Below the pieces are notes generated by a model. The model made no database searches, was not told where the DNA came from, and was given only the letters and a program-made list of their open reading frames with translations. This document shows, one piece after another, positions 31,722 to 35,926 of a stretch of 64,000 nucleotides of DNA. Source of the DNA: Clostridiaceae bacterium (GTDB taxonomy: Bacteria; Bacillota; Clostridia; Oscillospirales; QAMX01). The stretch's first letter is position 1. Every line of letters starts with the position of its first letter. Position numbers and translations under genes: made by a program. The DNA lies in assembly GCA_018384365.1 (NCBI GenBank), contig JAHAYX010000018.1, positions 1-64,000 of the forward strand, read 5' to 3'.

Positions 31722-32243
31722 ATGGGATTGATACATCTATATTGCGGAGATGGGAAAGGCAAAACCACAGCTGCCTTTGGACTGGCGCTTCGCGCCCAGG
31801 GCGCAGATTTCCGGGTGGTGATCGCGCAGTTTCTGAAAACGGAACCAACAGGGGAGGTCACTGCGCTGCGGAACCTTCCGCGGGTGACGCTGCTGCGCGC
31901 CGAGCGGCGCTTCGGATTCACCTGGACACTGTCACCGGAGGAGCAGCAGGCCCTGCGCCGGGAACAGAATGCACTTTTCAGTCGTGCCATTGCGGCCTGC
32001 CCGCAGGAGGGACCTGTGCTGCTGGTGCTGGACGAAGTGGTGGGCACGGATCGGTACGGTTATCTGGACCCTGCGCCGCTGCGCACATTTTTGCGGGCTG
32101 TCCCGGAGAATGTGGAGGTCGTATTGACGGGTCGGGATCCGGCTCCGGATATTCTGGAACTGGCTGATTATGTGACGGAAATGAAAAAAATTCGCCATCC
32201 GTTCGACCGGGGAATTCCGGCGCGGGATGGCATTGAGCAGTAA
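31722..32243 (+). CDS. cobO: Corrinoid (cob(I)yrinate a,c-diamide) adenosyltransferase
   Basis: A 173-residue CobA/CobO/BtuR-type enzyme that transfers adenosyl from ATP to Co(I) corrinoid. The inverted P-loop GDGKGKTTAAFGLALRA is at residues 9-25, VLLVLDEVVGT near 108 and VVLTGRDP near 136. The family acts in de novo synthesis or salvage. It is the only cobamide-biosynthesis-type gene in the window, convergent with the corrinoid-activator gene across a shared terminator, which makes a role beside the corrinoid module plausible. Confidence 0.9.
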   Translation: MGLIHLYCGDGKGKTTAAFGLALRAQGADFRVVIAQFLKTEPTGEVTALRNLPRVTLLRAERRFGFTWTLSPEEQQALRREQNALFSRAIAACPQEGPVLLVLDEVVGTDRYGYLDPAPLRTFLRAVPENVEVVLTGRDPAPDILELADYVTEMKKIRHPFDRGIPARDGIEQ

Positions 32244-32244
32244 A

Positions 32245-32278
32245 AAAACCGGGTACGTATTTTACGCACCCGGTTTTG
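32245..32278. terminator. Bidirectional terminator between cobO and the RACo-type gene
   Basis: AAAACCGGGT pairs with ACCCGGTTTT around an inner CGTA/TACG extension. A/T runs on both sides let it serve both converging genes. Confidence 0.85.
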
Positions 32279-32284
32279 GTTTTC

Positions 32285-33847
32285 TCAGCTTTCCGGAAAG
32301 AGCATATTTTCAATATAGGCATCGCGGAAAACAGGGTCTGTCGAGAGCTCCAGCGTCTGTGCTCTTGCCGCAATGCCCTCGGCCTCCGCAATCTTATCCC
32401 GGGAAAGCAGCTGCATCACGGCGCCCATTCCGGCCGCGTTTCCAATGGCATGAATTTGTCCGGAAAATCCGGCGGGGATCAGCCCGATCCGCTGCGCGCT
32501 GGCGGTATCCAGCACGCTGCCAAAGCCGCCGGCAATCAACAGCCGGGCGATATCGACTGTGCGGAGTCCGGCGGAGGCAATCAGGGCCTCCATTCCGGCA
32601 CAGATCGCCGATTTTGCGAGCTGTACGGCACGGATGTCCTTCTGCGTGATGACTACCTGCGAATGGGGGAAACGAATGGCCGCCGTGCCGTCGGATTCGA
32701 CAAGCAAATCGTCCGGCAGTGCGAGATCGTCAATTGCGCCGGTTTCATCCAGATATCCGAGCGAGAGGCAGGCGGCAACTGCATCTATTATACCGGAACC
32801 GCAGATTCCCCGCGGCGTTCCGCCGCCGATCGTGTCATAGAATAGGGCGCCGTTTTCCGCACGGACATGCGAAATTGCACCTTCGGAGGCGGTCATGCCC
32901 ATCTGGATGCCTGCACCCTCAAAGGCTGGACCGGCTGCCGTGGAACAGCACAGCAGCTTCCCGTTTGCAGCCAGTGCGATCTCACCGTTTGTGCCGATAT
33001 CAGCCAGCAAAACAGGCTCTGAGCGAGACAACATACCGCTGGAGAGGATGCCGGAGGTAATGTCGCCGCCGACATAGGCCGAAATGCACTTTGTTATGTA
33101 AACCTTAGCGTTTGGCGCCGAAAGCCCAAGATCAGCGGCGGAACAGAATTCCCCGAAGCTGCGGTCCTGTGCAAAGGGAGCCTGCGCAATGGAGGATGGA
33201 TCCGCGCCAAGGAGGAAATACTCCATCGCCGTATTTCCGGTGAAAACAACGGACTGAAGCGCAGAAAGGGAGACGCCGGCCGTGCGGCACAAGCGGGCAA
33301 GCAGGGTATTTGCACAGCCGTGTATCTGTTCAGCCAAAGCAGGCCCGCCGCCTGAAACGGCATGAGAAATGCGGGAAATGACATCCGCGCCAAATGCGGC
33401 CTGCGGATTCTTTTCTGCGTCTGCGGCGAGCAGAGCGCCGGAGGTCAGATCATAAAGATAGGCAGCGACGGTCGTGGTGCCGATATCAAAGGCAGCACCG
33501 CAGCCCTCCGCCCAGGGCCTTCGCGAAAAATTCGCAAGTTCCCCGGAAGTCAGAATCTGCTCCCCCACGATATCGGGCAGGATTAGCTCCGCGTCACCCA
33601 GCGCGGTTGTCATGCAGGCGTAGCGGACGCCCTGCGCGATTTCCTCCGCAGTAAGCCAGGAGGCTTCCGTTTCGGAAAGCGGGGAAAGTGCACCGTGTGC
33701 AATTACTCTGCATTTGCGGCAGCGCTGTCTGCCGCCGCAGGGCATGGAAAGCGGAAGATGTTCCTGCGCAAAAAGTGTTGACAAGCGCACAGGGGTGCTG
33801 TACTCTAAAACGGTAGTGGAACCATTTTGATAAATCGTCAGTTTCAT
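32285..33847 (-). CDS. RACo/RamA-type reductive activator of corrinoid proteins (2Fe-2S + ASKHA domain)
   Basis: A 520-residue protein that, by family, uses ATP to reduce inactivated Co(II) corrinoid proteins to Co(I). The N-terminal plant-ferredoxin-like domain has C37, C43, C46 and C78 (CGGRQRCRKC, then a distant C). The ASKHA/DUF4445 domain has DIGTTT at 121-126, ADIGTNGE at 282-289 and AGGFG at 439-443. It is shorter than typical RACo (about 630) and lacks most of the linker region. AGGAGGGTC precedes the ATG. It diverges from the PocR/AraC regulator; the corrinoid protein at 35231 is the likely partner. Confidence 0.9.
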   Translation of the reverse strand: MKLTIYQNGSTTVLEYSTPVRLSTLFAQEHLPLSMPCGGRQRCRKCRVIAHGALSPLSETEASWLTAEEIAQGVRYACMTTALGDAELILPDIVGEQILTSGELANFSRRPWAEGCGAAFDIGTTTVAAYLYDLTSGALLAADAEKNPQAAFGADVISRISHAVSGGGPALAEQIHGCANTLLARLCRTAGVSLSALQSVVFTGNTAMEYFLLGADPSSIAQAPFAQDRSFGEFCSAADLGLSAPNAKVYITKCISAYVGGDITSGILSSGMLSRSEPVLLADIGTNGEIALAANGKLLCCSTAAGPAFEGAGIQMGMTASEGAISHVRAENGALFYDTIGGGTPRGICGSGIIDAVAACLSLGYLDETGAIDDLALPDDLLVESDGTAAIRFPHSQVVITQKDIRAVQLAKSAICAGMEALIASAGLRTVDIARLLIAGGFGSVLDTASAQRIGLIPAGFSGQIHAIGNAAGMGAVMQLLSRDKIAEAEGIAARAQTLELSTDPVFRDAYIENMLFPES

Positions 33848-33881
33848 AGAGACCCTCCTGTGGGTATCTTAAAAAACTTTT

Positions 33882-33907
33882 TTCCGAAAGTCAAGTGCCT
33901 TTCGGAA
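33882..33907. promoter_or_regulatory. Inverted repeat, candidate operator in the divergent corrinoid region
   Basis: A perfect 9-bp inverted repeat (TTCCGAAAG, 8-base spacer, CTTTCGGAA) lies in the 84-bp gap between the RACo-type gene and the regulator. Neither side carries a T run that would make it a terminator. A regulator site controlling both genes is the simplest reading. Confidence 0.55.
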
Positions 33908-33931
33908 GCGCGAGGGAAGGAGCACCGTGCC

Positions 33932-35137
33932 TTGACAGATGAGACAAAGAAAAACTGCATGCAATTGCTGTCGCATCTGGAAGGCGTCAGCGGTGTGGCA
34001 TGCAGTATGCTGGACGCCGTGGAAATGCGGCTGTATGGCAATACGGAATTCTGTATGCAATGCCGCTATGCAGGCTGCGACCACTGCAACACGGCGCATT
34101 ATGGCTGCAGCGAGTCCTTCCGATGGGGCGGCCGCTATATTTATTACTGCACGGCCGGTTTGGTATTCACTGCGTCTCCGCTGCTGGGTGAAAATGGGGT
34201 TTCGGAGGGCGGCCTGATTGCCGGCCCGATGATACTGGGTGAAGAAGAGGATACCCTGTCTGCACTGGACGCGCCGTACCGCAGTCTTGCGGCATCTTTG
34301 CCGGTTTTGTCCACAGTACGCGTACGTGACCTTTCGGAGATTCTGGCTGTTATGACGGCGTATGTAAACGGCGCGCCGCATTTGCCGGGTATCCAGATGA
34401 AAACGGTGCCGGCGCACTTCACGGACCGCGGCAAGTTTTCAGATTACGAGGATGCGCGCTATTTTCTCGATGGCGAACGCCAGCTTCGGGCTTTTGTTGC
34501 CGCAAACGAGCGGGCAAAGGCACAGGCTCTGCTGAACGATCTGCTGGGACATATTTATTTTTCAAGCGGTTTCGATCTGAGTACCATAAAGGCCCGGGTA
34601 ATGGAGCTGATTGTTATTCTTTCCCGGGCGGTGATTGAGGCGGGCGCTGAAATGAGCGAGATCCTGCTGTATAACGCGGAATACTTCAATAATATCGAAC
34701 ACTTTACGGATCTGGAGGAAACGAGCGTCTGGCTGAGCGGCGTGATGCACCGTTTTATCAATTATACCTTTGACTTCCGCCGTGTGAAGCACGCAGATGT
34801 GGTGCATAAGATTATGGAGTATATACGCGGCAACTATCACCGGAAAATTACGCTTGAGGATATTGCCGGTCAGGTGTATCTGAGCCGTTCCTATATCAGC
34901 AGCCTGTTCAAGGAAGAAACGGGCTGCAGCCTGACGGGATACATCAACCATGTCCGGATCGAACAGAGCAAGCGGCTGCTGGCGGATAACAAAATTGCCC
35001 TGGTGGACATTGCCGGATTGTGCGGCTTTGAAGATCAGAGTTATTTTACAAAAGTGTTTAAAAAGGAAACCGGGATGCCCCCGAACCGCTATCGTGCCTT
35101 GCATGCCGGCAGCGTGCAATATTTCGAAGAATCATAA
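33932..35137 (+). CDS. PocR-domain sensor / AraC-family transcriptional regulator
   Basis: A 401-residue regulator. The N-terminal PocR ligand-sensing domain (about 1-165) has a dense Cys cluster at 41, 44, 49, 52 and 59, then the YYCTAGL motif with Cys73. A helical linker (190-290) leads to a C-terminal AraC/XylS DNA-binding domain with two helix-turn-helix motifs (ITLEDIAGQVYLSRSYISSLF and LVDIAGLCGFEDQSYFTKVF). PocR domains control propanediol/cobalamin and methyltransferase genes. The TTG at 33932 is chosen because AAGGAG lies 9 bases upstream; the frame upstream overlaps the divergent gene and lacks a ribosome site. Confidence 0.88.
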   Translation: MTDETKKNCMQLLSHLEGVSGVACSMLDAVEMRLYGNTEFCMQCRYAGCDHCNTAHYGCSESFRWGGRYIYYCTAGLVFTASPLLGENGVSEGGLIAGPMILGEEEDTLSALDAPYRSLAASLPVLSTVRVRDLSEILAVMTAYVNGAPHLPGIQMKTVPAHFTDRGKFSDYEDARYFLDGERQLRAFVAANERAKAQALLNDLLGHIYFSSGFDLSTIKARVMELIVILSRAVIEAGAEMSEILLYNAEYFNNIEHFTDLEETSVWLSGVMHRFINYTFDFRRVKHADVVHKIMEYIRGNYHRKITLEDIAGQVYLSRSYISSLFKEETGCSLTGYINHVRIEQSKRLLADNKIALVDIAGLCGFEDQSYFTKVFKKETGMPPNRYRALHAGSVQYFEES

Positions 35138-35230
35138 TATTTTTATAAAATCAAAAAATTATACTATCTTTCGCCCGGACTATCCCCTAAAATGAGAACA
35201 GGAATTTGACTGTTCACGGAGGTTTTTGAT

Positions 35231-35875
35231 ATGGTACGCATGGAAGAAATCAGCGAATTTCTGCAGAAGGGCCGCGCGCGCAATGTGAAGCAGCTTGTGG
35301 AGGAGGCTCTTTCCGAGGGAACTGCGCCCGGCGTGATTCTGGAAGAGGGACTTTTAGCCGGCATGGGTGTGATCGGCGAAAAATTCAAGAATAACGAGGT
35401 GTTTGTGCCGGAAGTGCTGATTGCCGCGCGTGCTTTGAATGCCGGACTGGATATTCTGCGTCCGAAGCTCGCGGAATCCGGCGTGGAGGCCAAGGGTACG
35501 GCCGTGATCGGCACGGTGAAAGGCGATCTCCACGATATCGGCAAGAATATCGTGAAAATTATGTTTGAAGGACACGGCATCCAGGTCGTAGATCTGGGCG
35601 TGGATGTATCGGCGGAGCAGTTTGTAGACGCTGCGGTGGAAAATCATGCAAATTTGATTTGCTGCTCTGCACTCTTAACGACGACTATGGGCGAAATGGG
35701 CCGGGTCGTTGAAATCCTGAAGGAACGCGGCCTGCGCGACAGCGTGAAGGTGATGGTCGGCGGCGCGCCGATCACCCAGAGCTTCTGCGACTCGATCGGT
35801 GCAGACGCTTATGCGCCGGACGCTGCAACCGGTGCGGAAGCGGCGATCCGACTCCTTGGCGAAATGGAAGGCTGA
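35231..35875 (+). CDS. Corrinoid (B12-binding) methyl carrier protein, MtaC/MtbC/MttC type
   Basis: A 214-residue two-domain corrinoid protein: a helical cap (B12-binding 2, residues 1-88) and a Rossmann-like cobalamin domain with GDLHDIG at 98-104, where His101 is the expected lower cobalt ligand. In methyltransferase systems it carries the methyl group from a substrate-specific MtxB enzyme to MtxA or to the acetyl-CoA pathway. CGGAGG precedes the ATG. It lies 93 bp after the PocR/AraC gene and is followed by a terminator; no methyltransferase gene is adjacent. Confidence 0.94.
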   Translation: MVRMEEISEFLQKGRARNVKQLVEEALSEGTAPGVILEEGLLAGMGVIGEKFKNNEVFVPEVLIAARALNAGLDILRPKLAESGVEAKGTAVIGTVKGDLHDIGKNIVKIMFEGHGIQVVDLGVDVSAEQFVDAAVENHANLICCSALLTTTMGEMGRVVEILKERGLRDSVKVMVGGAPITQSFCDSIGADAYAPDAATGAEAAIRLLGEMEG

Positions 35876-35889
35876 GTGTTTGAAAAATG

Positions 35890-35926
35890 AAAAGTCCGTT
35901 GTTTCAAAAAACAGCGGACTTTTTTG
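35890..35926 (+). terminator. Terminator of the corrinoid protein gene
   Basis: A 13-bp imperfect stem (AAAGTCCGtTGTT / AACAgCGGACTTT) is followed by a T run, 14 bases after the stop codon. Confidence 0.9.

Follow-up and report, generated by a model that had tools for sequence, protein, structure and literature searches.

Type 1 mlp gene clusters, as described by Kountz and Balskus (PMC10418091), combine URO-D enzymes with a corrinoid protein and its activator but without a folate methylase, and their hosts are obligate anaerobes, mostly Firmicutes, as in the present case. In Phaeobacter inhibens, the methionine synthase MetH is split into separate proteins and works with a RamA-like activator (Price et al., PMC5764234), and in Ruegeria pomeroyi the corrinoid protein MtgC is common to glycine betaine demethylation and methionine synthesis (PMC12478193). 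The DNA analyzed here (the window) is a 64,000-nucleotide stretch of contig JAHAYX010000018.1 from a Clostridiaceae bacterium, and between positions 32,285 and 35,875 it carries a three-gene module encoding a corrinoid carrier, an ATP-dependent activator, and a transcriptional regulator. We consider it likely that this module supplies the shared components of a URO-D-type corrinoid methyl-transfer system and that its methyltransferases have their genes elsewhere in the genome. The parts of such a system are already known from type 1 mlp gene clusters, split MetH, and shared MtgC; what is new is the combination of URO-D enzymes, a shared carrier, the lack of a pterin-binding protein, and dispersed genes.

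The carrier module and its candidate partners

The three-gene block reported in a preliminary description of this DNA is borne out by Pfam matches for all of its members, each of which is intact:

32285–33847, minus strand: RACo/RamA-type ATP-dependent corrinoid reductive activase, 520 aa (RACo_C_ter, 4.1e-72; Raco_middle, 3.7e-45)
33932–35137, plus strand: PocR-domain AraC-family regulator, in an open reading frame (ORF) that is open from 33827 (PocR, 6.3e-10; HTH_18, 1.6e-20)
35231–35875, plus strand: stand-alone corrinoid carrier, 214 aa (B12-binding, 4.6e-25; B12-binding_2, 1.2e-19)

The activase comprises a 2Fe-2S N-terminus, whose cysteines (CX5CX2C...C) are readable in the translation, a middle region, and an ASKHA C-terminus, a domain order that predicts a RACo/RamA reductive activase. 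It had been described as about 100 residues shorter than usual, which holds against the 632-position AcsV/RACo model but not within its clade, where such a length is ordinary: activators beside related carriers have 456 to 633 residues, most of them 480 to 560. The true start of the regulator is probably a TTG at about position 33932, judged by comparison with the congener G001. The carrier combines a B12-binding_2 cap with a B12-binding Rossmann domain that contains the motif DLHDIG (matching DxHxxG), and its nearest solved structure is 1y80 (4e-55). From its sequence, it would thus belong with the methyltransferase corrinoid proteins of the MtaC/MttC/MtgC type, although it scores under the named MtgC/MttC equivalog cut-offs. 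The same corrinoid-protein domain make-up and RACo/RamA activation are found in the MtaBC, MttBC, and MtgBC systems.

The resemblance to the methanol, methylamine, and glycine betaine systems does not extend to the substrate enzymes. The preliminary description had called the module one without a methyltransferase and had expected MttB, MtaB, or MtgB as the missing partner. Locally, the first statement stands, since the ORFs that were listed and scanned from 28 to 42 kb of the window include no methyltransferase gene. The expected families proved to be the wrong ones, judged from MttB (PF06253), the family covered genome-wide: the search proposed for it returned no member in the window genome (G000; 2.11 Mb in 63 contigs, 88.7% complete), and only 3 of 79 related genomes contained one. 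MttB was rejected as the partner. In the genome as a whole, the claim of a missing methyltransferase fails, because three URO-D proteins are encoded there, all on contigs other than that of the window:

U4, contig C26: 344 aa, URO-D 205 bits
U3, contig C48: about 343–398 aa, URO-D 84 bits
C12, contig C33: 412 aa, URO-D 23 bits, slightly under the cut-off

The carrier of the window is the sole protein with a B12-binding domain (PF02310) found in this genome. U4 shares 53–72% identity with its counterparts in 26 relatives, and its residues H232, C234, and C316 are invariant across the 27 sequences, forming the H-x-C...C pattern of coenzyme M methyltransferases. Placed in a URO-D fold, this pattern suggests that U4 has the zinc ligands of the soluble coenzyme M methyltransferases (SCMTs) MtaA and MtbA (4ay7). 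Unlike these enzymes, U4 remains below the family cut-offs (128 bits against the MtaA/CmuA model, versus 235; 1e-13 against the MtaA structure), and this bacterium would not be expected to contain coenzyme M, their usual acceptor. U3 and C12 are distant from the SCMTs. For C12, the AlphaFold2 model (predicted local distance difference test score of 86) has URO-D enzymes and MtaA as its best PDB matches, with TM values of 0.4–0.5 and a high root-mean-square deviation, and a URO-D fold is predicted on this basis.

Linkage of carrier and URO-D genes in related genomes

Co-occurrence across relatives, which had been suggested as a way to examine the block, connects the carrier with URO-D genes. 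Among the 79 related genomes, 45 have both the carrier and URO-D genes, 1 has only the carrier, 2 have only URO-D genes, and 31 have neither (Fisher 1.9e-18, with no correction for shared ancestry). Both states occur within ten families, and the observed agreement was reached in 3 of 20,000 within-family permutations. The one clear exception is G064, with a carrier at 51% and no URO-D gene. Carrier-positive genomes mostly have one stand-alone carrier, whereas their URO-D genes number from 1 to at least 22; with few carriers and many URO-D genes per genome, one carrier probably serves several enzymes as a hub. A large expansion of unassigned enzymes was observed in G048, G066, G013, G053, and G068, each with 15 to at least 22 URO-D genes beside one stand-alone carrier.

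Gene neighborhoods were compared at 80 loci with carriers 56–71% identical to that of the window, together with loci from the 79 related genomes, using tblastn, profile hidden Markov models, and a composition-scored ORF caller. The carrier gene immediately adjoins a URO-D-type gene of the same orientation at 34 of 80 independent loci, and 26 of the 38 loci with complete flanks have a URO-D-type gene within 5 kb. Within that distance, RACo was found at 49 loci, PocR-AraC at 43, and DUF2284 at 30. Homologues of U4 stand next to the carrier in many relatives, for instance in the order PocR-carrier-U4 at L006 and L123 (carrier 70%). L011 has the layout of the window, with RACo divergent from PocR-carrier and one additional gene between RACo and PocR, and carries U4 at the end of RACo. 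At L016, a homologue 57% identical to the U3 of G000 lies directly upstream of the carrier gene. A dedicated methyltransferase beside the carrier in relatives had been named in advance as the result that would reduce the module to a simple rearrangement, and these adjoining U4 and U3 homologues largely correspond to it. The split is maintained in the congeners, with only the trio in G001 and the carrier plus RACo in G002; the carrier is 83–86% identical across the genus. Since the split layout recurs in G001, it reflects a stable, genus-level dispersal and not an accident of assembly.

Two further arrangements were seen in relatives. At L023:2976-6010 and L026:10001-13005, one RACo gene is flanked by two different carrier genes in the same orientation. 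DUF2284, a predicted metal-binding family (e.g., L059:10647-11204), is frequent near the carrier and activator; none was seen in the window, and the rest of the window genome was not searched for it.

Methyl acceptor, methyl donors, and regulation

Profile searches detected no pterin-binding protein (PF00809), methylenetetrahydrofolate reductase (MTHFR), or MetE in G000 or in the congener G001 (93% complete). Both genomes retain a stand-alone homocysteine methyltransferase with the zinc residues GLNCS...GGCC. Because these folate-linked enzymes and MetE are missing while the homocysteine enzyme is kept, homocysteine is the likely methyl acceptor and our best candidate for this role. The homocysteine methyltransferase (L005:1135-2427, minus strand, in alignment A6) carries about 110 additional, conserved residues at its C-terminus that match no Pfam family and recur order-wide. 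Of the 20 carrier-positive genomes that lack both MetH and MTHFR, 18 have a stand-alone enzyme of this type; among all MetH-less genomes, it occurs in 24 of 28 carrier-positive versus 3 of 13 carrier-negative ones (p 1.7e-4). Its gene lies near the carrier at L027, L047, L070, L099, and L131. In the third congener, G002, the carrier is instead accompanied by MetH and a homocysteine/MTHFR fusion.

In the system we propose, the carrier, its ATP-dependent re-activator, and the regulator would form a common core for dispersed URO-D methyltransferases. PocR-AraC would turn the core on, and RACo would re-reduce carrier that has been oxidized to Co(II). The methyl group would leave to a thiol, most likely that of homocysteine, through the stand-alone homocysteine methyltransferase; U4, with the zinc-ligand pattern of the thiol methyltransferases MtaA and MtbA, may assist this transfer. 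Scavenged methyl groups would thereby probably pass through homocysteine into methionine. A more far-reaching version, which we put forward tentatively and regard as rather doubtful, is a folate-free, hub-and-spoke methionine synthase in which many dispersed URO-D demethylases, some with O-methylated sugars or polyols as substrates, would feed methyl groups to the one carrier, from which the homocysteine enzyme with its conserved C-terminal domain would receive them, so that methyl-tetrahydrofolate is replaced as the methyl source for methionine in a lineage of anaerobic Clostridia.

Hints as to the methyl donor come from the U3 cluster (L120:3682-11918, contig C48), which encodes an L-fucose-isomerase-like protein, an FGGY kinase, and an iron alcohol dehydrogenase and is conserved in G001 (L170) at 75–92% identity. 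These neighbors suggest a methylated sugar or polyol as the substrate of U3. An alpha-L-rhamnosidase gene lies beside the cluster in G000 only, not in G001. A sugar linkage was rejected as a general rule, given that the neighbors of 39 dispersed URO-D genes (122 proteins) displayed no broad carbohydrate enrichment over 20 control regions (106 proteins). Standing out near the dispersed genes, in small numbers, were AraC regulators (6) and Gfo/Idh/MocA proteins (4), neither of which is among the 25 families listed for the control. No literature tying this carrier to O-methyl carbohydrates was found, which is weak evidence given the limited literature coverage.

The remaining features around the module are as follows:

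31722–32243, plus strand: ATP:corrinoid adenosyltransferase of the CobA/BtuR type, neighboring gene (Pfam CobA_CobO_BtuR, 1.2e-51)
32245–32277, both strands: bidirectional terminator-like hairpin between the convergent cobA and RACo genes (RNA fold −18.8 kcal/mol on the plus strand and −23.0 kcal/mol on the minus strand; z −3.4 and −6.0)
33882–33907, no strand assigned: dyad TTCCGAAAG-N8-CTTTCGGAA in the RACo/PocR divergent promoter region, from sequence and a scan, overlapping the −35-like TTGACT of RACo
35889–35924, plus strand: terminator-like hairpin 3′ of the carrier gene (RNA fold −20.2 kcal/mol, z −5.7)

Both hairpins are strong and followed by T-runs, in agreement with the terminators reported on the two sides of the module. 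The dyad is half conserved in G001 and not conserved in G002, and it is at best a weak, possible candidate for a PocR operator. No Rfam match to a cobalamin riboswitch was obtained within 28–42 kb. The adenosyltransferase gene does lie next door, as had been pointed out, but it is not a conserved neighbor of the carrier: L048 is the single other locus, of those examined, that has such a gene close by, and CobA was not retained as a part of the module.

Alternative explanations and significance

The proposal that the module is the shared core for URO-D methyltransferases encoded elsewhere was weighed against three others. The first takes the module for part of a type 1 mlp gene cluster with dispersed genes, in which the URO-D enzymes would be S- or Se-methyltransferases removing methyl groups from methyl-sulfur or methyl-selenium compounds. 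U4, with its similarity to the SCMTs and its retained H-x-C...C, speaks for it, and no tetrahydrofolate methylase was detected in G000, as judged from PF00809 only, MtrH-type enzymes not having been searched for. Such clusters are, however, defined by Mlp2 and Mlp3 encoded together with corrinoid and activase genes, whereas here the single SCMT-like gene found is unclustered and on another contig, and U3 and C12 are far from the SCMTs. Further differences are the PocR-AraC regulator of the window and the many dispersed URO-D genes that accompany each carrier in relatives, and we regard this explanation as unlikely. Quite improbable, in our judgment, is a split methionine synthase that uses methyl-tetrahydrofolate, as in P. 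inhibens, with no role for foreign methylated substrates. The separate B12-binding protein, the separate homocysteine methyltransferase, and the RamA-like re-activator are indeed the parts described in that organism (PMC5764234), but the methyl-tetrahydrofolate module (PF00809) that would complete the set is absent from G000 and G001, as is MTHFR. Moreover, the carrier tracks URO-D genes, not pterin-binding ones, and 18 carrier-positive genomes also have full MetH.

The preliminary description had left two possibilities, substrate enzymes encoded elsewhere that share the carrier or a partner of an unrecognized kind. Our results support the former and give the partner family as URO-D-fold methyltransferases, which makes the latter superfluous. 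A non-URO-D partner, or a module that is a decaying remnant, would accord with the 10 of 34 complete-flank loci that have the trio or a pair but no URO-D gene within 8 kb; we nevertheless hold it to be very improbable, given the three intact genes, the conservation of the carrier in the genus, and a genome-wide co-occurrence with URO-D from which only G064 clearly departs.

Several points weigh against a URO-D partnership with homocysteine as the acceptor. A nearby URO-D gene is lacking at about 3 in 10 complete-flank carrier loci, and co-occurrence alone is not proof of partnership. A by-eye comparison of the regions upstream of the carrier, RACo, U4, U3, and C12 genes in G000 and G001 gave no convincing common operator. 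A dedicated partner could also sit in the missing part of the window genome. The carrier and homocysteine enzyme genes could both merely mark methionine prototrophy. Stand-alone homocysteine methyltransferases can also take S-methylmethionine or betaine, and the link to this acceptor is thus correlative.

With a core shared among URO-D methyltransferases, the system proposed here would resemble R. pomeroyi MtgC in its use, one carrier serving both substrate demethylation and methionine synthesis. In R. pomeroyi, the demethylase is of the MttB type (PF06253) and the pterin-binding protein MtgD is required (PMC12478193), whereas the present system has URO-D enzymes and no pterin-binding protein. 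A partner family can now be named for a widespread carrier that looks like an orphan, which explains why searches for MttB, MtaB, and MtgB come up empty, and a concrete set of proteins is defined for joint testing. If homocysteine is the acceptor, the methyl groups of methionine in these bacteria would come from foreign methylated compounds and not from folate, which would bear on the methionine makers of the gut and on the role of many unassigned URO-D proteins in Clostridia.

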